Origin: Anaerocolumna cellulosilytica
Lineage (GTDB): Bacteria > Bacillota > Clostridia > Lachnospirales > Lachnospiraceae
Assembly: GCF_014218335.1 (NCBI RefSeq)
Contig: NZ_AP023367.1
Span: forward strand, 4,397,501 to 4,461,500
DNA: 64,000 bases
Direction of reading: 5' to 3'
Shown: positions 50,039-58,044 of the stretch, piece after piece
Layout of the letters: every line of letters begins with the position of its first letter
How positions within the stretch are numbered: the first letter of the stretch is position 1
Program-made: the position numbers and the translations under genes
Notes under the pieces: model-generated
Told to the model about the DNA's origin: nothing
What the model saw: the letters and a program-made list of their open reading frames with translations, nothing else
Databases searched by the model: none

Positions 50039-52411
50039 TTACATATTAGACTCAGCATAGTCATAGTCCGTATCAAACAGCTTCTGGTTATTATCAAGTT
50101 GAGATACTCCTGCTTTATTATGTTTTTGAAGCAGCTCCATTGCCACTAATAATAAAGCAATACTTATAATTGCCAGGCAGGCAAGCACTGCCATATTGTG
50201 GGTAAAGGTTGCACCACCAAGTCCTCCGCTGATTGCCTGCCGAAATCCCATGATAGAATAGCTCATTGGCAACAATGCATGTATCTTATTAAAGAACTCA
50301 GAGGTTAACTGCATCGGGAAAGTTCCCCCCGCACCAGCCAACTGAAGAACCAATAATACCATTGCAACAAAGCGACCTGGATTATCAAATGCCATAGCAA
50401 GCAGCATAATAAAGAACATATATGCATAAGCCGTAATGAGAGCCATTACAATGTATTCGCCAAAATTACTAGTTGTGATTCCTAGTACTTTCATAATGAT
50501 AGTTTCTAATAAAGCCATTGCAGTGGCTGCAACAAACCCTACAGATAGTTTACTAACCCACCATTGAAAGGCTGATTTTCCACTTTTAGCTACTTTACGG
50601 ATTGGATAGATAAAGTTAAATATCATACAGCCTACATAAAGGGCTAAGGACATGACATATGGTGCCAGAGCATGACCATAATTCGGTACTTCACTATATT
50701 TCGTTTTATTTAAAGTATCTGGTGAGGCTATCATGTCTACAGATGCCTCTGATATCTCTACTGCGCTAACTTTTTCCTTGCCTTCTGACAGACCAGCTTC
50801 TAAGTCCCCTGCACCAGCTGCCAGTTCCGTTAAACCAGTGTCTAGCTTTTCAGAGCCGTCTGCTAATTGTGATGTACCATCATAGATTTTATTAGCTCCG
50901 TCTGCTAGTTTTGTTACACCTTCTGTTAACGCTGCATCGTTTGCAGTTATTTGAGTTAAACCATCGTAGAGTGCCATTGAGCCTTTCTCTGCTTTTTTAG
51001 CACCTAGGTTTAAATCCTCTGCTTTTGTATTTAACATACCTAATCCACTATCCAGCTTACCAACACCTGCTGTATAGGTTTTTAACCCTTTTTCTAACTC
51101 TTTTGCACCTTCATTAAGTGTCGTCAGCTTTTCCATTAACGCAGGTGTACTGCCGGCCAACGTAGTAATCTGGTCAGATAATGTCTGCGTTCCTTTAACA
51201 AGCACAGGTGTCTGTTTGGAAAGGCTTTCAAGTCCTCCTGCCACACCCTGGACAGCCTGCTTTAAGGTCTTATAACCATTTAGTGATGCAGTTACTTTTT
51301 CAAGTATAACAGCCTGTTGTTCTGCCGGCAGATTTTTAAAGACTTCGGGGCTTAAGTATTTTGTTAAAGCATCAATACTTTCCTCGTCAGGTATGGCCGC
51401 CGCTGTTTTATCTGCCCCATCTTTAAGTTGATTAATTGCCGTATCTACAGCAGACATACCCGTTGCCAATTGCGTGATTTTCTCGCTATTTTCAGAAAGT
51501 CCGGCAAGTTTACTGCCTAATTGTTCCGGTATCATGGCAACTCCGTCAGCCACCTGCTTCATGCCATCATTTAAGGCTTTGGAGTTACCGTTTAACTGTG
51601 CAATGCCTGCATATGCAGAACTGACACCTTGTGTATACGCGGTAATACCTTTTGCTAAAGTTCCTAAACCTGTTTGTAAATCTTTTGCACCGTCTCTTGC
51701 CTGCTCAACACCTCCTATGTAACGGCTTAGACCTAAACTTATGGAATCTGTACCGTCACTGAATGTAAGGCTGGCATCTTTTAATTTGTTTAAATTTTCA
51801 AAAATTGTTTCATTACCATCTTTTACTTTATCAATACCATCTTTTAGTTTTGTTGAACCATCTGCTGCGGTTGTAAACCCATCTGCTACTTTTGATAACT
51901 GACCTACAATTGAATCTACATAAGCTTTTGTAACTTTTTCTGAAACCTTGCTTTTTAACTCTTTTGCGGCCTGGTCACCGATTACTTCACCAAAGTAATT
52001 TAAGGCACCATTCGTTTCATACTCAATACTCATTTTTTGAGGGTTATCTGATAACACGGTGGCTGCATTGGCAGAGAAATTATCCGGCAATGTAAGAATC
52101 ATATAAAAATCTTTATTTTTTAGTCCTTCTTTTGCTTCTGCTTTGCTTACAAAATGCCATTCCAGTGTACTATCCTCTTGCAACTCTTTTACTACATCCC
52201 TTCCAATGGAAAGTGTCTTACCTTCAAACGCAACTTCTTTGTCTTCATTTACAACTGCTATTGGAAGATTTTCCGTCATTCCATAGGGATCCCATACAGA
52301 TTTCAAGAAAAAAGAAGCATACAGTATTGGTATAAAACACATTACGATAAAAGAAATTAACAGGATTTTATTGCTGAATATCTTTTTCCATTCTGATTTA
52401 ATCATTTCCAT
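50039..52411 (-). CDS. YhgE/Pip-family membrane protein
   Basis: 790 residues. One N-terminal membrane helix (LLISFIVMCFIPILYASFF), then about 550 extracytoplasmic residues with many 'LxDGxxxLxxG' heptad-like repeats (KLADGANKIYDGTSQLADGS), then five C-terminal helices of ABC-2 permease type (about 590-770). This is the YhgE/phage-infection-protein architecture; relatives include a phage receptor in lactococci. Preceded by, and overlapping by 14 bp, an Rrf2-type regulator. Export or envelope role inferred. Confidence 0.88.
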   Translation of the reverse strand: MEMIKSEWKKIFSNKILLISFIVMCFIPILYASFFLKSVWDPYGMTENLPIAVVNEDKEVAFEGKTLSIGRDVVKELQEDSTLEWHFVSKAEAKEGLKNKDFYMILTLPDNFSANAATVLSDNPQKMSIEYETNGALNYFGEVIGDQAAKELKSKVSEKVTKAYVDSIVGQLSKVADGFTTAADGSTKLKDGIDKVKDGNETIFENLNKLKDASLTFSDGTDSISLGLSRYIGGVEQARDGAKDLQTGLGTLAKGITAYTQGVSSAYAGIAQLNGNSKALNDGMKQVADGVAMIPEQLGSKLAGLSENSEKITQLATGMSAVDTAINQLKDGADKTAAAIPDEESIDALTKYLSPEVFKNLPAEQQAVILEKVTASLNGYKTLKQAVQGVAGGLESLSKQTPVLVKGTQTLSDQITTLAGSTPALMEKLTTLNEGAKELEKGLKTYTAGVGKLDSGLGMLNTKAEDLNLGAKKAEKGSMALYDGLTQITANDAALTEGVTKLADGANKIYDGTSQLADGSEKLDTGLTELAAGAGDLEAGLSEGKEKVSAVEISEASVDMIASPDTLNKTKYSEVPNYGHALAPYVMSLALYVGCMIFNFIYPIRKVAKSGKSAFQWWVSKLSVGFVAATAMALLETIIMKVLGITTSNFGEYIVMALITAYAYMFFIMLLAMAFDNPGRFVAMVLLVLQLAGAGGTFPMQLTSEFFNKIHALLPMSYSIMGFRQAISGGLGGATFTHNMAVLACLAIISIALLLVAMELLQKHNKAGVSQLDNNQKLFDTDYDYAESNM

Positions 52412-52919
52412 AAATATTTTTCATCACCTTTCGAATCAACAATTCCCGTCGTTCTGAATGATTCCAGTTAATAGGCAGGATTTCTTTTTTCCCCAGTGCT
52501 TCCTCTAATAACTGTTGTACTGTAATGGTTTTAAGAGCCTCTCTCCACAATACATCAGCTTTTGAAAAGGCATTTCGTAAAGCAATTGTTCCTTGATTGG
52601 CGATGGCTTGTTTATCCTTAAATACCTCGTCAATTAAACCGGTATCCGGATAGGTCTCTATCGTTCCTTCCAAAGCTTCAACGATTTGAAGCAGGTTAAT
52701 ATCTGCACAATTACGGGCAAGGGTAAATCCGCCGTTATTTCCGGATACAGAATCTACTAAACCTGCCACAACCAACTTACGTATTATTTTTTTTGTATAG
52801 GTCAATGAACCTTTGAGGCGCGTATGAATCTCTAAGGAAGCTACTGGGATATCCGGATCCTGTGTCGCCAGCAAAGTTATTATGCAGATGGCCTGCTCAA
52901 TGCCTTTCGTTAATTTCAT
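52398..52919 (-). CDS. Rrf2-family transcriptional regulator
   Basis: 173 residues from ATG 52919, 9 bp after AAAGGAGATG. Rrf2 winged helix (KGSLTYTKKIIRKLVVAGLV, SVSGNNGGFTLAR). Only one Cys (NCADINL) lies in the region where Fe-S Rrf2 proteins carry three, so an Fe-S cluster is unlikely. Overlaps the YhgE-like gene and probably controls it. Unlike most Rrf2 members it has a C-terminal extension of about 35 residues rich in basic residues. Confidence 0.8.
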   Translation of the reverse strand: MKLTKGIEQAICIITLLATQDPDIPVASLEIHTRLKGSLTYTKKIIRKLVVAGLVDSVSGNNGGFTLARNCADINLLQIVEALEGTIETYPDTGLIDEVFKDKQAIANQGTIALRNAFSKADVLWREALKTITVQQLLEEALGKKEILPINWNHSERRELLIRKVMKNIYGND

Positions 52920-53093
52920 TTTCTCATCTCCTTTAACGATATTCATTATCCATTATGGATATATGATGTCTACGATGAAATAGTAATCCTTTTCTTATTC
53001 TTAGTCAATTGTGATAATTCTGAATATCTTGGTTAAAATTAATTATTTTTTATATGCTTTGCACAGCAAACCATATAAAGCCATGCCTTGCAA

Positions 53094-53157
53094 GACAAAA
53101 AAACTGCTGTAACGTATCTGCAGACTCGTACAGCACATACATTACAACAGTTTTATG
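53094..53157 (-). terminator. Terminator after leuA-AraC
   Basis: 17-bp stem with G-U pairs (AAACTGTTGTAATGTAT and partner) enclosing a smaller hairpin; T7 on the minus strand. Confidence 0.8.
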
Positions 53158-53171
53158 AGATATTAAAAATA

Positions 53172-55163
53172 CTATCCGTTTTTTTGATTCCGAAACTGTA
53201 CAGGGGTCATACCATGCACTTTTTTAAAAAGACGGTTGAAGTGCTCCACATTCTGATAGCCCACTCTATCTGCAATGGAATCTACAGTCATACCATTGCT
53301 TTTTAACAATACTTCTGCTTTGGATATCCGTATTTCCTTTACAATATCCCCAAAAGTCTTTCCAGTATTTTCTTTGATGTATTTTGAAAGATACGGCTTT
53401 GATAAATAAAATTCTTCTGACAAGTCCTCTAAGGTTACACTTTTATAGTTGCGATGTATAAAGTTCAGGATTTCAACCATTCTTCCGTCTCTTCGGGACT
53501 GCGTGCCTTCTGCTTCCACCAGCTGATTTGCAGCTACTGCTAGAGCCATAATAGAGGACTTTATAATATCTTCGTCAAAGCCAACACCCCAATACAGTTT
53601 ATTCTTATAGCTAAGACCAATATAAGAAACCGCTTTTGAAGAAGTTCCCTTTGACAAGGCATGCTCTTCATAGATCATTAATTCATAATTAATTCCAAAA
53701 TACTGTCTGATTGCATTACTAATAGCATCTAAGCGTCCGTTACCACTTGAACTTATTACAAACTCTTTGCCTTCTTCACAGATAGTTAGCTCCGCTAAAA
53801 TTCCTTCTGCCTGTTTAAAATGGAATTCTTTTATCTGGAATTGTTGTGCATTATGCACATACTTTTCTTCAAACACCTGATATATTAATCCTGGAGACAA
53901 TTCTTTGTGTTCTCTATCTGAAACATTTTTGATAAAGTATCCTACTTCTTCCTTCATCTTTTCAGGAAGGGATAAACCAAAATTCTGTTTCAAGATATAG
54001 CTTACGCCGCCTTTACCGGATTGGCTGTTGATACGGATTACATCGGATTCGTATTCTCTTCCGATATCCTTTGGATCAATAGGCAGATAAGGTACACTCC
54101 AGATTCTCTCTCCTTTTTCTTCTCTCCACTTCATTCCTTTTGCTATGGCATCCTGGTGAGAACCTGAAAAGGCTGTAAATACCAGTTCACCGGCATAGGG
54201 AGAGCGCTCGTAAACCCTCATTCTTGTAAGTCTTTCATAGGTTTCACATATCTTTGGCATATTCCCAAAATCAAGTTTTGGGTCAACACCATGGGAATAC
54301 ATATTCATAGCTACTGTAATTATATCAACGTTTCCTGTACGTTCTCCGTTCCCAAATAAGGTACCTTCAATACGGTCTGCCCCGGCGAGCAGACTTAATT
54401 CTGCATCACATACACCACTTCCTCTGTCATTATGAGGGTGTATGGATATTACCACATTCTCTCTGTACTTTAAGTTTTTACTAATATATTCGACCTGACT
54501 TGCAAAGACGTGAGGCATTGCATTTTCTACTGTTGTAGGAATGTTGATAATTGCTTTCTTATCTTGTGTCGGTTTCCATATATCTAATACGGCATTGCAT
54601 ATTTCCAGTGCAAAGTCAACCTCCGTTCCCGGAAAACTCTCAGGGCTGTACTGAAAAGAAAAATTACCGTCTGTTTTATCACCAAGCTCTTTTAATAACT
54701 TCGCTCCAGAGATTGCAAGTTGTTTGATTTCCTCTTTACTTTTGCCAAAGACCTGCTCTCTCTGTGCTACAGATGTAGAATTATAAAGATGGACGACTGC
54801 ATGAGGTGCTCCTTTTAACGCTTCAAAAGTCCGCTTAATAATATGTTCTCTTGCCTGGGTAAGTACTTGGATGGTAACATCTTCTGGTATCATATTTTTC
54901 TCAATAATAGTACGGATAAAATTATACTCCGTCTCAGAAGCCGCCGGAAATCCTACTTCTATTTCTTTAAAACCGATATCAACCAGCAATTGAAAAAACT
55001 CTATTTTTTCTTCCAAACTCATAGGTTCTACCAATGCCTGGTTACCATCTCTTAAGTCAACACTGCACCAATAAGGTGCTTTATCAATGTAATCTTTTGT
55101 TACCCAATCATAAGATAGAACCGGAGGCATAAAATAAGCTTTCTCATATTTTTTAAATTCCAT
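53172..55163 (-). CDS. leuA: 2-isopropylmalate synthase fused to an AraC-type DNA-binding domain
   Basis: 663 residues from ATG 55163 (GATGGGAGTTTATT upstream). Residues 1-400 are the type-2 LeuA TIM barrel: [26 protein letters not shown] and [11 protein letters not shown] are metal and substrate sites. Residues about 425-545 fit the C-terminal dimer/leucine-feedback domain. Residues about 560-663 form a complete AraC double helix-turn-helix ([39 protein letters not shown]). No stop or frameshift separates the parts. LeuA condenses acetyl-CoA with 2-oxoisovalerate, the first leucine step. The extra domain suggests the enzyme also binds DNA; that is inference. A T-box leader precedes it. Confidence 0.92.
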
Positions 55164-55292
55164 AATAAACTCCCATCTGTGTGTTCTAACGTATTGACGC
55201 TTGCACACTCTTAAATCAAGATGTTGACTTTTTCAATTGATATGTTTTCATTTATCTATCAGGAACGCTATTAGTTCATATTTTCCATCTTT

Positions 55293-55349: not shown

Positions 55350-55645
55350 AAAAAAATCTTTCGTCTCCTAATAAATGCGAACACTTAACTAGAGACGAAA
55401 GATGAAATCTTGCGCGGTACCACTCTACTTCATGATAAATCATGCACTTACAAGCACGGGCTAAATGCCTTATACTTAAACCTTATAACGGAGGTTGTTC
55501 CGGCTTCGTCTACTTATTGTTCAACGAGCTGCTCCAAGGTGAGTTCATCATAGACCGGATACTGTTTCCCATCAGCCAACAGCTTTCTGAAATCAGGTTT
55601 ATCATTACTATTCCTTTTCACTGCATTTCATTTTCTATACTATAG
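55350..55645 (-). ncRNA. T-box leader, leucine-type specifier
   Basis: The minus strand carries the T-box core AGAGTGGTACCGCGC (55412-55426) and a terminator made of GAGACGAAAGAT and its complement (55356-55367 with 55392-55403) with a T run. Upstream, the stem I region contains GATGAACTCACC, where CTC (55541-55543), a leucine codon, is the best specifier candidate. Uncharged tRNA(Leu) would favour readthrough into leuA. The 5' end is estimated. Confidence 0.88.
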
Positions 55646-55770
55646 CAGATATTTTTTTGTAAAACCAGTGATAAATTTAATCAGTTATATTGATTTTTTT
55701 TATCATCCTTCTTTTCATTTGGAATATGACATAAGTTGCAACCTATAAAATTAGTTGTTTAATTAAGAAG

Positions 55771-55848: not shown

Positions 55849-58044
55849 TTAGTCTACTAAAACTCCGTCATAATATACTTTTACTACAGGATTTGATATG
55901 GTACCGTAAGCAGACCAATCTGTCTTGGCAAAACGGATATCCATAACAAAACTTCCGCTTCCGGCTGTTAATTCAGCGCTTTTACTAACAGTAAGCGTCA
56001 ATATTTTGTCATGAACAGCACCTGAAACAAAGTCACTTAAGGAAGCATAGTACGGAGGATAGGTAGTCTGTAGAGCCGCCTGGTCACACCATACATTTTG
56101 CGCAGCACTGCTCATTCCTTCTCCTGTAAAGGTTATAGTCACTTTGGATAAATCAATGGTTCCTCCCACTGCCGTTACTGTATACTTCTGCCCAATGGAA
56201 TTGCCACTATTTTTAGTCGTAACTGTTACTGCTGGAATCCCTTCTACTGGGTTGCCCGTGGGCGTTGGACTGCTTGTTGGTGTCAGCGTAGGGGTTACTG
56301 TTGGGGTCACTGACGGGGATACCGTTGGGGTGGGGCTAACCGTTGGCGTTATTGTAGGCGTTGCAGTAGGTACTTTGGTCGGTGTTGGCGTGCCTGTCGG
56401 ATTCATTCCTTCAATGATAGCATAGTACGCAGGTTTTGCTTTGTACTCTGCATCAAAGAGCAGAGGATACCCTCCTAACCAGCTTGTCGCATCCGTTACT
56501 CCCCAAAAGATTACAGCTGTAAAATTAATACCTTCTTTTTTCAGACTTACTACTTTATTCATCAACATTTTATAGCGGCTTGCCTGGGAAGCCAGGGCAC
56601 TGCTGCTGCCATCCGGCTGTTTTATATCCAATTCTGTAAGCTGAAGTTCAAGCCCCAGAGTGTTGTATTTTCTGGCTGCTGTTTCAAACATACTAAGACT
56701 TGGATAATCCATAGTCCAGTGGGATTGCATCCCCATACCATCAATCAGGTTCTTCTTTTTTAAATCTGACAAAATCTCATAGATAAAGGAGCTTTTCTTA
56801 CTTTCATATTCATTATAGTCGTTATAAAAGAGCTTACAACCTTCCGGTGCGTATTTTCTTGCATATTCAAACGCTTTTTCAATAAAATCGCTTCCTACCG
56901 TCAACATCCAAAGAGAGTTCCCAGGTGTTGTATTATTAGAACCCGGATTTCTCATACCCGTTGCAGTATTTGGGTCCACTGCTTCATTAACTACATCCCA
57001 TGCATAGAATTCTACCGTCGGGTAGGCTGTACTAATTAATTCCATCAGGTTTTTAATATAATTCTCAAGTCTTTGTAACATTACCGCCTTAGATGCCCAT
57101 GGCGCATTGGAGTCTGTGGAATAGTTTTCTTTAAAGAACCAATCCGGTGTCTGAGAATGCCATACCAGTGTATGTCCTCTTACCGGTATATTATTATTTC
57201 TTGCATATTCTAATAGTGTCCTGGCTGCTCTTATGTTAACCTGAGGATTTACCTGGTCACCAGAGTTATCCTCCATATATGCTATGGTGGCATTATAATC
57301 AAGTACAGCGTCCGGTTTTAATTCATTTCCCGGGGTTAATAAATTATAATGTTTCTTCACAAGAGCCTTCCCCGGCGCCGGTGCCAATTCATTGGCAGTG
57401 GCAGCACCACCTATGTTAAAATAAGGTGCATAAACCTCTTTCAGGCTTGGAATGTTATCCTCAATATCTGGCAAATCTGCGGGTGTTGCAGTAAAATCAT
57501 CCAGATAAAAATCCAAAAAATCTTGTGAGGACGGTGATGACTTATATTCTGTCTCCACATAAATGTAGACATTGGTAGCATCGGTAGGAATTGTATATTC
57601 TCCCTCTAAATGTGTCCAATTGTCTTTTGTAACAGACGCAGTTTTAATGTTCTTATACTGGTCGCTTACGCCATCATTGTATTGAAGCTGTAAGCTGAAT
57701 TTTTGAGTATTAGAATAAGAACTCCCCACATATTTAATCCAAATTCCAAATACATAAGTTTCTCCCAGCGTAAGGTCCTGCGTTTTGTCACTGGTTGCTC
57801 CATGCCAAGTCGCCGTACGGTTACTGACCTTAATGCTATTCATACCTGAATGCGCTTGCTCCGTACTTAAGCTTACCATTTCAGCTTCAATTCCTCTGGG
57901 TCCCCAGCCATTTAAACCGTTCTCGAAATCATCAAGTATTAAGTTTCCGTATGCAGCAACTCCTAAGTTCGGTACATAAAAGCTTGTCCCGGTTACTAGT
58001 ATTGCTAAAATTACCAGTATTGCTGCTATCTTTTTGCTTTTCAT
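55849..58044 (-). CDS. Secreted multidomain endo-1,4-beta-xylanase, GH10
   Basis: 731 residues. Signal peptide (residues 1-32), then a CBM4/9/22-type carbohydrate-binding domain (about 35-190, LILDDFENGLNGWGPRG). GH10 barrel at about 205-545, with acid/base Glu in WDVVNEAVD and nucleophile in QLTELDIKQ. A Pro/Thr-rich linker (about 550-600) leads to a C-terminal domain of about 125 residues resembling a CBM3-like cellulose-binding module (GGTIDLSKVTITFTGEG; KVYYDGVLVD). Cleaves xylan outside the cell. No anchor, so released. Confidence 0.92.
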   Translation of the reverse strand: MKSKKIAAILVILAILVTGTSFYVPNLGVAAYGNLILDDFENGLNGWGPRGIEAEMVSLSTEQAHSGMNSIKVSNRTATWHGATSDKTQDLTLGETYVFGIWIKYVGSSYSNTQKFSLQLQYNDGVSDQYKNIKTASVTKDNWTHLEGEYTIPTDATNVYIYVETEYKSSPSSQDFLDFYLDDFTATPADLPDIEDNIPSLKEVYAPYFNIGGAATANELAPAPGKALVKKHYNLLTPGNELKPDAVLDYNATIAYMEDNSGDQVNPQVNIRAARTLLEYARNNNIPVRGHTLVWHSQTPDWFFKENYSTDSNAPWASKAVMLQRLENYIKNLMELISTAYPTVEFYAWDVVNEAVDPNTATGMRNPGSNNTTPGNSLWMLTVGSDFIEKAFEYARKYAPEGCKLFYNDYNEYESKKSSFIYEILSDLKKKNLIDGMGMQSHWTMDYPSLSMFETAARKYNTLGLELQLTELDIKQPDGSSSALASQASRYKMLMNKVVSLKKEGINFTAVIFWGVTDATSWLGGYPLLFDAEYKAKPAYYAIIEGMNPTGTPTPTKVPTATPTITPTVSPTPTVSPSVTPTVTPTLTPTSSPTPTGNPVEGIPAVTVTTKNSGNSIGQKYTVTAVGGTIDLSKVTITFTGEGMSSAAQNVWCDQAALQTTYPPYYASLSDFVSGAVHDKILTLTVSKSAELTAGSGSFVMDIRFAKTDWSAYGTISNPVVKVYYDGVLVD

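Follow-up and report, generated by a model that had tools for sequence, protein, structure and literature searches.

A type-2 2-isopropylmalate synthase with a fused AraC-type DNA-binding domain, and an operator-like element conserved at the promoter of its gene

The window analysed here, the whole 64,000-nucleotide stretch of the Anaerocolumna cellulosilytica genome (a single contig of 5.43 Mb), contains a 663-residue frame, named here leuA-araC, that runs without interruption from ATG to stop on the minus strand. The gene, the domains of its product and its flanking signals are located as follows.

53172..55163, minus strand: leuA-araC fusion gene, 663 aa, with the ATG at 55163-55161
54249..55076, minus strand: HMGL-like catalytic TIM barrel, residues 30-305 (Pfam 237 bits, above the curated cut-off)
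53988..54188, minus strand: IPMS_D2 post-catalytic domain, residues 326-392 (Pfam 118 bits, above the curated cut-off)
53520..53894, minus strand: LeuA_dimer allosteric (leucine) domain, residues 424-548 (Pfam 86 bits, above the cut-off)
53184..53423, minus strand: HTH_18, AraC-type double helix-turn-helix (HTH), residues 581-660 (Pfam 69.8 bits, cut-off 33.6)
53370..53405, minus strand: HTH1 turn and recognition helix, residues 587-598 (from conservation, n=90; model helix 589-600)
53220..53261, minus strand: HTH2 turn and recognition helix, residues 635-648 (from conservation, n=90; model helix 639-650)
55161..55177, minus strand: likely ribosome-binding site (GGGAG) and start codon, read from the sequence
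53097..53154, minus strand: inverted repeat and T run 3' of the gene, likely terminator, read from the sequence

An alternative in-frame GTG upstream of the ATG would give a protein of 678 residues. The gene looks monocistronic because a likely terminator follows it. On the same strand lie an Rrf2-family regulator (52398-52946, Pfam), a large protein judged by eye to be a YhgE/Pip-type membrane protein (50039-52411), whose gene overlaps that of the Rrf2-family protein by 14 bases, and a large secreted protein, xylanase-like by eye, with a Thr/Pro-rich linker (55849-58044).

The sequence confirms that the 663-residue protein joins a full type-2 LeuA to a full AraC double-HTH domain in one chain. 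The first-pass annotation had read the frame in this way, and every Pfam domain scores above its cut-off; the LeuA barrel, the LeuA dimer domain and HTH_18, the three domains by which it proposed to check that reading, are all found on the protein. A separate HTH_AraC match covers residues 620-659 (50.8 bits, cut-off 26.6), and the AraC signature quoted in that annotation corresponds to residues 635-647. The NCBIfam model PRK03739.1 for 2-isopropylmalate synthase is passed with 799.9 bits against a cut-off of 455; the leuA_yeast equivalog TIGR00970 scores 669.7, slightly below its cut-off of 697.4, and the protein is therefore not assigned to this narrower model. Residues R38, D39, H242, H244, H336 and Y359, which we take, mostly from general knowledge, to have catalytic or metal-binding roles, are invariant in 34 sequences and align to R80, D81, H285, H287, H379 and Y410 of Mycobacterium tuberculosis LeuA (1sr9). 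The GNGRL motif of the LeuA_dimer domain (474-478) is invariant in 90 sequences. Solved AraC-type chains, 6swi and 3lsg among them, match the HTH by sequence, and the 663-residue protein has no Pfam match to an AraC-type N-terminal ligand domain, LeuA standing in its place. No second type-2 LeuA was found in the host genome, where two other enzyme-type matches are partial and at most 31% identical. This genome is rich in AraC-type proteins, with 76 HTH_18 matches in 5.4 Mb.

An AlphaFold model of the 663-residue protein (pLDDT 77, pTM 0.52) gives a fair picture of most individual domains but no more, and its pLDDT falls below 50 at residues 321-344 and 352-385. The HTH is modelled as six helices in AraC order (578-662), with block pLDDT values of 79-88 except for the last three residues. 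With a pTM of 0.52, domain placement in the model is unreliable and the position of the HTH unusable. A fold search returned LeuA and other TIM-barrel enzymes, and no AraC, among the 50 matches listed.

The fused architecture is widespread. A search of genome contigs yielded at least 597 matched stretches, at least 582 of which encode a relative. The best 80 of these 582 or more relatives are all fused frames of 661-668 residues, covered over approximately residues 3-661 at 70-75% identity; by title they derive mainly from Lachnospiraceae, and also from Sporomusa silvacetica and an uncultured Pelosinus, and their gene neighbours differ widely as judged by eye. A survey of 299 genomes of the host's family, from 298 genera and including the host's own, found HTH matches (E ≤ 1e-22) in 82: frames of at least 660 residues in 68, an HTH in another frame in two, and matches only in other proteins in 12. 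The LeuA-HTH unit is present in 70 of the 299, nearly a quarter, almost all belonging to different genera. The figure of 68 of 299 is taken from the match list, and diverged fusions may escape the HTH query; LeuA and HTH were read as one chain in the fetched loci, and 22 of 22 further loci tested span both. In a sample of the phylum the fusion occurs in four of 299 genomes: the host's own, two more of its family and one of another family (G339). The survey for which the first-pass annotation had called thus returned 68 of 299 in the family, 4 of 299 in the phylum, and a single origin on the tree described below.

A join produced by a frameshift, by chance or by assembly is excluded, because relatives keep the whole frame (the best 80 of at least 582, at 70-75% identity, and 68 of 299 family genomes). 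The first-pass annotation had named relatives with a degenerate or separately translated HTH as evidence against its reading; such relatives are rare. Two of the 70 family genomes with a LeuA-HTH unit (G395 and G412) carry the HTH behind LeuA in another frame, and one clearly degenerate HTH was seen (G572). In the G412 locus (L242), LeuA ends a few codons beyond a stretch of eight A residues, with the HTH going on in another frame, which may reflect either slippage giving two products or an assembly indel; in G395 (L239) a LeuA of 553 residues is followed by a small HTH-only frame with its own ATG. In a quick maximum-likelihood tree built on the LeuA part from 126 fused, two split and 24 unfused sequences (152 rows), a single change separates fused and split from unfused proteins, indicating that the LeuA-AraC fusion arose once.

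The recognition helices of the HTH are strongly conserved. Over 90 sequences, eight of the 12 positions of HTH1 (587-598) are at least 94% identical and the rest 76-88%, and 13 of the 14 positions of HTH2 (635-648) are at least 92% identical, L645 standing at 62%. The mean share of the top residue in the same set is 0.88 for the barrel, 0.80 for the HTH, 0.75 for the leucine domain and 0.59 for the linker (549-570); by plain residue identity the HTH is thus less conserved than the barrel. The dN/dS ratio over 22 pairs is lowest in the HTH (0.027, compared with 0.036 in the barrel and 0.069 in the leucine domain), although these ratios are rough because synonymous sites are near saturation (pS 0.55-0.69). 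Judged from these comparisons, the HTH is under strong purifying selection.

Upstream of the gene, the window shows a promoter with an operator-like element, O1, followed by a T-box, a likely terminator and leuA-araC itself.

55667..55706, minus strand: O1, predicted 40-bp operator with two direct-repeat units 22 bp apart (PWM 49.0, maximum 56.6)
55637..55647, minus strand: extended -10 element TGCTATAGTAT, starting 19 bp after O1
55388..55630, minus strand: T-box leader RNA, Rfam RF00230 (128.9 bits, gathering score 93)
55350..55368, minus strand: 3' arm and T run of a likely T-box terminator hairpin, read from the sequence

O1, an operator-like element conserved at the promoter of leuA-araC and its fused relatives, goes beyond the first-pass annotation. 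Its 40-bp consensus upstream of fused leuA genes is AnRWTAAAAWAnATCAATAAAAnTGATTAAATTTRTCACT, and the element at 55667-55706 is the sole match (up to three mismatches) in the 64-kb window, with none in 100 shuffles. Similarity between O1 columns peaks at an offset of 22 bp (0.50, with 0.48 at 23 bp), consistent with two direct-repeat units. With a 28-base consensus chosen by eye from part of these loci, scores of at least 20 are reached in 79 of 86 distinct fused upstream regions (one fused locus with 47 upstream bases being excluded) against none of 20 unfused ones, the best of which reaches 19. With a PWM trained on the better sites of the fused-locus pool, scores above 0 are obtained for 88 of the 89 fused loci in the pool, or 85 of the 86 distinct ones, and for 34 of 40 fused loci from outside it, whereas none of 24 unfused leuA loci does (best -5.6); O1 is also absent from the four unfused second LeuA copies present in fused genomes (G010, G023, G028 and G036). 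Six of the 40 new fused loci score 0 or below (L206, L219, L222, L236, L240 and L244), and the left O1 unit is still readable by eye in some of these six and in several low scorers. Both split loci retain O1 (PWM 35.1 and 13.8).

The placement of O1 relative to the promoter is constrained as well. Among the 112 of 126 distinct fused loci used here (PWM above 5), the extended -10 element TGnTAnnAT begins exactly 19 bp past O1 in 99 and 18 bp past it in 10, ties having been resolved towards 19 bp; all six specified -10 bases match in 102 loci, compared with five when flanks are shuffled. The -35 region is weaker: the best match to TTGACA is 3/6 in 59 loci, 4/6 in 33 and 5-6/6 in three (42, 16 and 1 in shuffled sequence), so that at least four of six bases match in 36 of 112 loci versus 17 of 112 after shuffling. 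Assuming a start site 7 nt after the -10 element, O1 would extend from approximately -74 to -35, with units at approximately -71/-57 and -49/-35. A tandem direct-repeat site of the AraC/XylS type adjoining the -35 region is present at leuA-araC, as conserved sequence only. By these computations, O1 is conserved with fixed promoter geometry at fused leuA genes.

The element is also close to exclusive to leuA in fused genomes, as computed on whole genomes. Thirteen of 14 fused genomes, a Sporomusa among them, have a single near-perfect site (0-1 mismatch), and it lies at leuA; the remaining genome (G019) has no match to the O1 pattern. Ten of 61 relatives are fused, and six of these have a site with 0-1 mismatch, three a site with 2-3 mismatches and G019 none, all at leuA; further matches with 2-3 mismatches are scattered over the 61 genomes at about the frequency of a reversed control pattern. 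In the host's own genome a shorter pattern with up to three mismatches gives 159 matches against 114 for the reversed control, which leaves little usable signal below the leuA site. A PWM scan of leuB and ilvD regions from 10 fused genomes gave no site (best -5.1), and the suggestion in the first-pass annotation that other leu/ilv promoters might be bound was mostly not borne out, near-perfect sites in the 14 genomes lying at leuA only. One further candidate, in G524, has three mismatches and a PWM score of 26.9 and stands ahead of a T-box and a gene for the large subunit of a biosynthetic acetolactate synthase; in this locus (L337) the O1-like site (1497-1536), the T-box (1594-1895) and the gene follow in a row, and it may be a second target. 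Simulated DNA (31 Mb for each of two compositions) gives no PWM score above 9.5, but the candidate is suggestive only, because pattern matches in real genomes lacking the fusion reach 22, G004 apart. A weaker O1-like site ahead of a T-box and trpB (G613, L338 1497-1536; two mismatches, PWM 11.1) was set aside as probably due to chance.

G004, in which the only LeuA found is unfused, is the one other genome among the 61 relatives with a site this close to the pattern: an O1-like site with one mismatch (PWM 31) stands beside a standalone AraC gene. The site (L296, 2181-2220) lies between this gene, away from which it is oriented, and a diverging gene that is rhamnosidase-like by eye. Its position hints at the origin of the HTH.

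The T-box of the window carries CUC, a leucine codon, at what we take to be the usual specifier place. The T-box signature was found in 33 of 127 distinct fused loci (absent from 94) and in 9 of 24 unfused ones; Rfam confirmed a T-box at 11 of 15 fused and four of five unfused loci tested; of the four fused loci where it gave none, two (L095 and L118) also lack the signature. The nearest unfused relatives (L019-L024) carry the signature, so that an ancestral leuA under T-box control is likely. O1 lies ahead of the T-box in all 31 loci having both, and the distance from O1 to the ATG is 355-787 bp with a T-box and 53-217 bp without one. A second O1-like site, O2, occurs just past the -10 element, about 73-75 bp beyond O1, in 46 of 79 loci without a T-box versus two of 31 with one (p ≤ 0.01), counts that pool loci regardless of clade; in 39 of the 46 it takes one of two adjacent offsets. 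None was seen on inspection of the window's own promoter. Since O2 is found mostly where the T-box is missing, it looks like a stand-in for it.

Several lines of evidence bear on which protein binds O1. The element accompanies the fused gene also in Sporomusa and in G339, outside the host's family, and is missing from G572, where the recognition helices are degenerate and a T-box (signature by eye) is the only control element left. Against a strict rule linking fusion and O1, G565 has a normal-looking HTH and no O1 in approximately 11 kb upstream, including the region ahead of a putative operon. Eighteen loci were chosen solely for the similarity of the HTH of a non-LeuA protein (G004, found through the motif, is not counted), and four of them have a PWM match beyond all 100 resampled sequences, 14 having none at that level; such a match was found at none of seven AraC loci of the host's own genome, none of 16 other loci and one of 41 ilv/leu loci. 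Three of the four sites separate the AraC gene from a divergent one; the fourth is found where the AraC gene ends, in front of its neighbour. In L301 and L303, the O1-like sites of the AraC-type genes face a divergent gene whose start resembles, by eye, a sugar ABC transporter ATPase; L304 is similar and weaker (p 0.04). Covariation between residues and operator bases is enriched in the HTH, which holds 37 of the 100 strongest pairs against an expectation of 15. Its main switch couples K or E at residue 589 to the operator's right end; as this happened about twice on the tree, the signal is weak and is not counted as independent proof. Presence, coupled absence, the loci with similar HTHs and covariation together point to the fused HTH as the probable O1 binder.

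We therefore propose, with a probability of roughly 0.7, that this LeuA is bifunctional, being both a leucine-inhibited synthase and an autoregulator at O1, most likely a class-II activator gated by leucine. We infer each of the three components, namely binding of O1 by the HTH, activation and leucine gating. Self-control of leuA-araC is probable because a conserved DNA-binding domain coexists with a conserved site at its own promoter; activation is favoured by the position of O1 and the weak -35 element, and is less certain than binding since a -35-like hexamer is not absent (36/112 versus 17/112). A dimer would set two AraC-type domains on the tandem O1 and, by class-II activation, recruit RNA polymerase to a promoter whose extended -10 is strong but whose -35 is weak; O2 would add repression in many relatives that lack a T-box. 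Leucine at the regulatory domain would both inhibit the enzyme and alter DNA binding, so that amount and activity of the first committed enzyme would answer to one sensor. PMC1919377 describes M. tuberculosis LeuA as an extended dimer in which the C-terminal domains pair as well and form the site of leucine binding; in such a layout a C-terminal HTH would hang beside the leucine site, two per dimer, matching the two operator units. The idea in the first-pass annotation that the enzyme acts as a transcription factor is thus strengthened by the conserved enzyme-AraC chain, the selection on the HTH and the operator-like O1, while its extension to other leu/ilv targets mostly falls away.

The sign of regulation could be the opposite. 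A leucine-bound dimer on O1, and on O2 where present, could block the promoter, making the protein a leucine-dependent autorepressor. O1 abuts the -35 region, O2 occupies a repressor position, nearly fixed and just past the -10 element, in 46 of the 79 T-box-free loci compared with 2 of the 31 that have a T-box, and leucine genes are classically governed by end-product repression; however, the geometry of O1 is close to that of the tested AraC-type activator MtlR, the -35 element is weak and the window's own promoter shows no O2. Autorepression is accordingly a tentative alternative, and repression would be most plausible above all where O2 exists. It is unlikely that O1 belongs to another, unlinked regulator and that the LeuA HTH binds elsewhere or has a different role, for example in oligomerisation. 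Such a reading draws on the tree, where a single change separates the two states, so that fusion and O1 are associated largely through one event in history, together with likely transfers and a coupled loss; it also draws on the split loci and G565-type exceptions. It accords poorly with the retention of O1 by fused genes in Sporomusa and G339, with the single near-perfect site per genome, which fits a self-encoded regulator, with the similar sites adjoining similar HTHs in four of 18 loci, and with G572, which has lost both a normal HTH and O1.

That the protein is a general regulator of branched-chain amino acid synthesis, with leuA one target among ilv/leu operons, is suggested by the G524 candidate; the leuB/ilvD regions of 10 fused genomes gave no site, although weak or divergent sites could escape, and sites with 0-1 mismatch in 14 fused genomes lie at leuA only, which makes this reading rather doubtful. 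It is scarcely credible that the HTH is a passive leftover or the product of faulty annotation or assembly: the two genomes with the HTH in another frame and the one with a degenerate HTH could be read in that way, but 68 family genomes keep the whole frame and the strong purifying selection indicated for the HTH contradicts it.

The broader scenario that follows from the bifunctional reading stands at about even odds. A feedback-inhibited enzyme would have become the leucine-sensing regulator of its own gene, with one pocket serving activity and synthesis; it would have arisen once from a T-box-controlled leuA, kept the T-box in some lineages, that of the window included, and in others swapped it for O2, and moved between families as a self-contained cassette of operator, promoter and gene. 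If true, a single allosteric protein would combine feedback inhibition with control of transcription in 70 of 299 family genomes. LeuA-AraC would then offer a clean test case for an enzyme turned transcription factor and for the swapping of protein and RNA control at one gene, and it could serve as a genetically coded leucine sensor. In the literature searched, mostly excluding subscription journals, none of the papers listed describes a LeuA-AraC fusion in its title or abstract, in agreement with the first-pass annotation, which knew of no described system of this kind.

Bacterial control of leucine synthesis usually relies on attenuation, T-boxes, Lrp or CodY, together with feedback inhibition of LeuA. 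The T-box (RF00230) is likewise a control element ahead of leuA, both in the window and at close unfused relatives, but its signature is absent from 94 of 127 fused loci, and it senses uncharged tRNA, not leucine. The closest enzyme is the type-2 LeuA of M. tuberculosis (1sr9/3fig), the best match by sequence and structure, which has all of the enzyme and leucine domains; unlike LeuA-AraC, it ends with the leucine domain (last aligned stretch 615-641 of 644) and carries no DNA-binding domain. An enzyme fused to AraC-type HTHs is exemplified by the Escherichia coli Ada methyltransferase, which activates its own promoter; the signal to which Ada responds is DNA damage, sensed through a single-turnover self-methylation. 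LeuA differs from Ada in being an allosteric catalyst with a sensor for a small-molecule end product.

PutA and BirA have DNA-binding folds that differ from the AraC type. In PMC6978683, PutA (proline dehydrogenase and put repressor) and BirA (biotin ligase and bio repressor) are given as trigger enzymes and, like LeuA-AraC in its predicted regulatory role, they combine in one protein a metabolic enzyme and a transcription regulator of their own pathway's genes. The hallmark of an enzyme and a DNA-binding domain in one conserved chain is found in LeuA-AraC. PutA and BirA are repressors, whereas LeuA-AraC would be a feedback-inhibited biosynthetic enzyme that bears its AraC domain at the C terminus and has a site predicted to be of activator type. 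The closest parallel to that site is the operator of the AraC/XylS activator MtlR of Pseudomonas fluorescens, which PMC4514859 describes as two similar 15-bp blocks at -72/-58 and -50/-36; O1 resembles it in its pair of 15-bp direct repeats, set 22 bp apart and lying immediately before the -35 region. The sensor of MtlR is an AraC-like ligand domain, whereas that of LeuA-AraC would be an entire enzyme.
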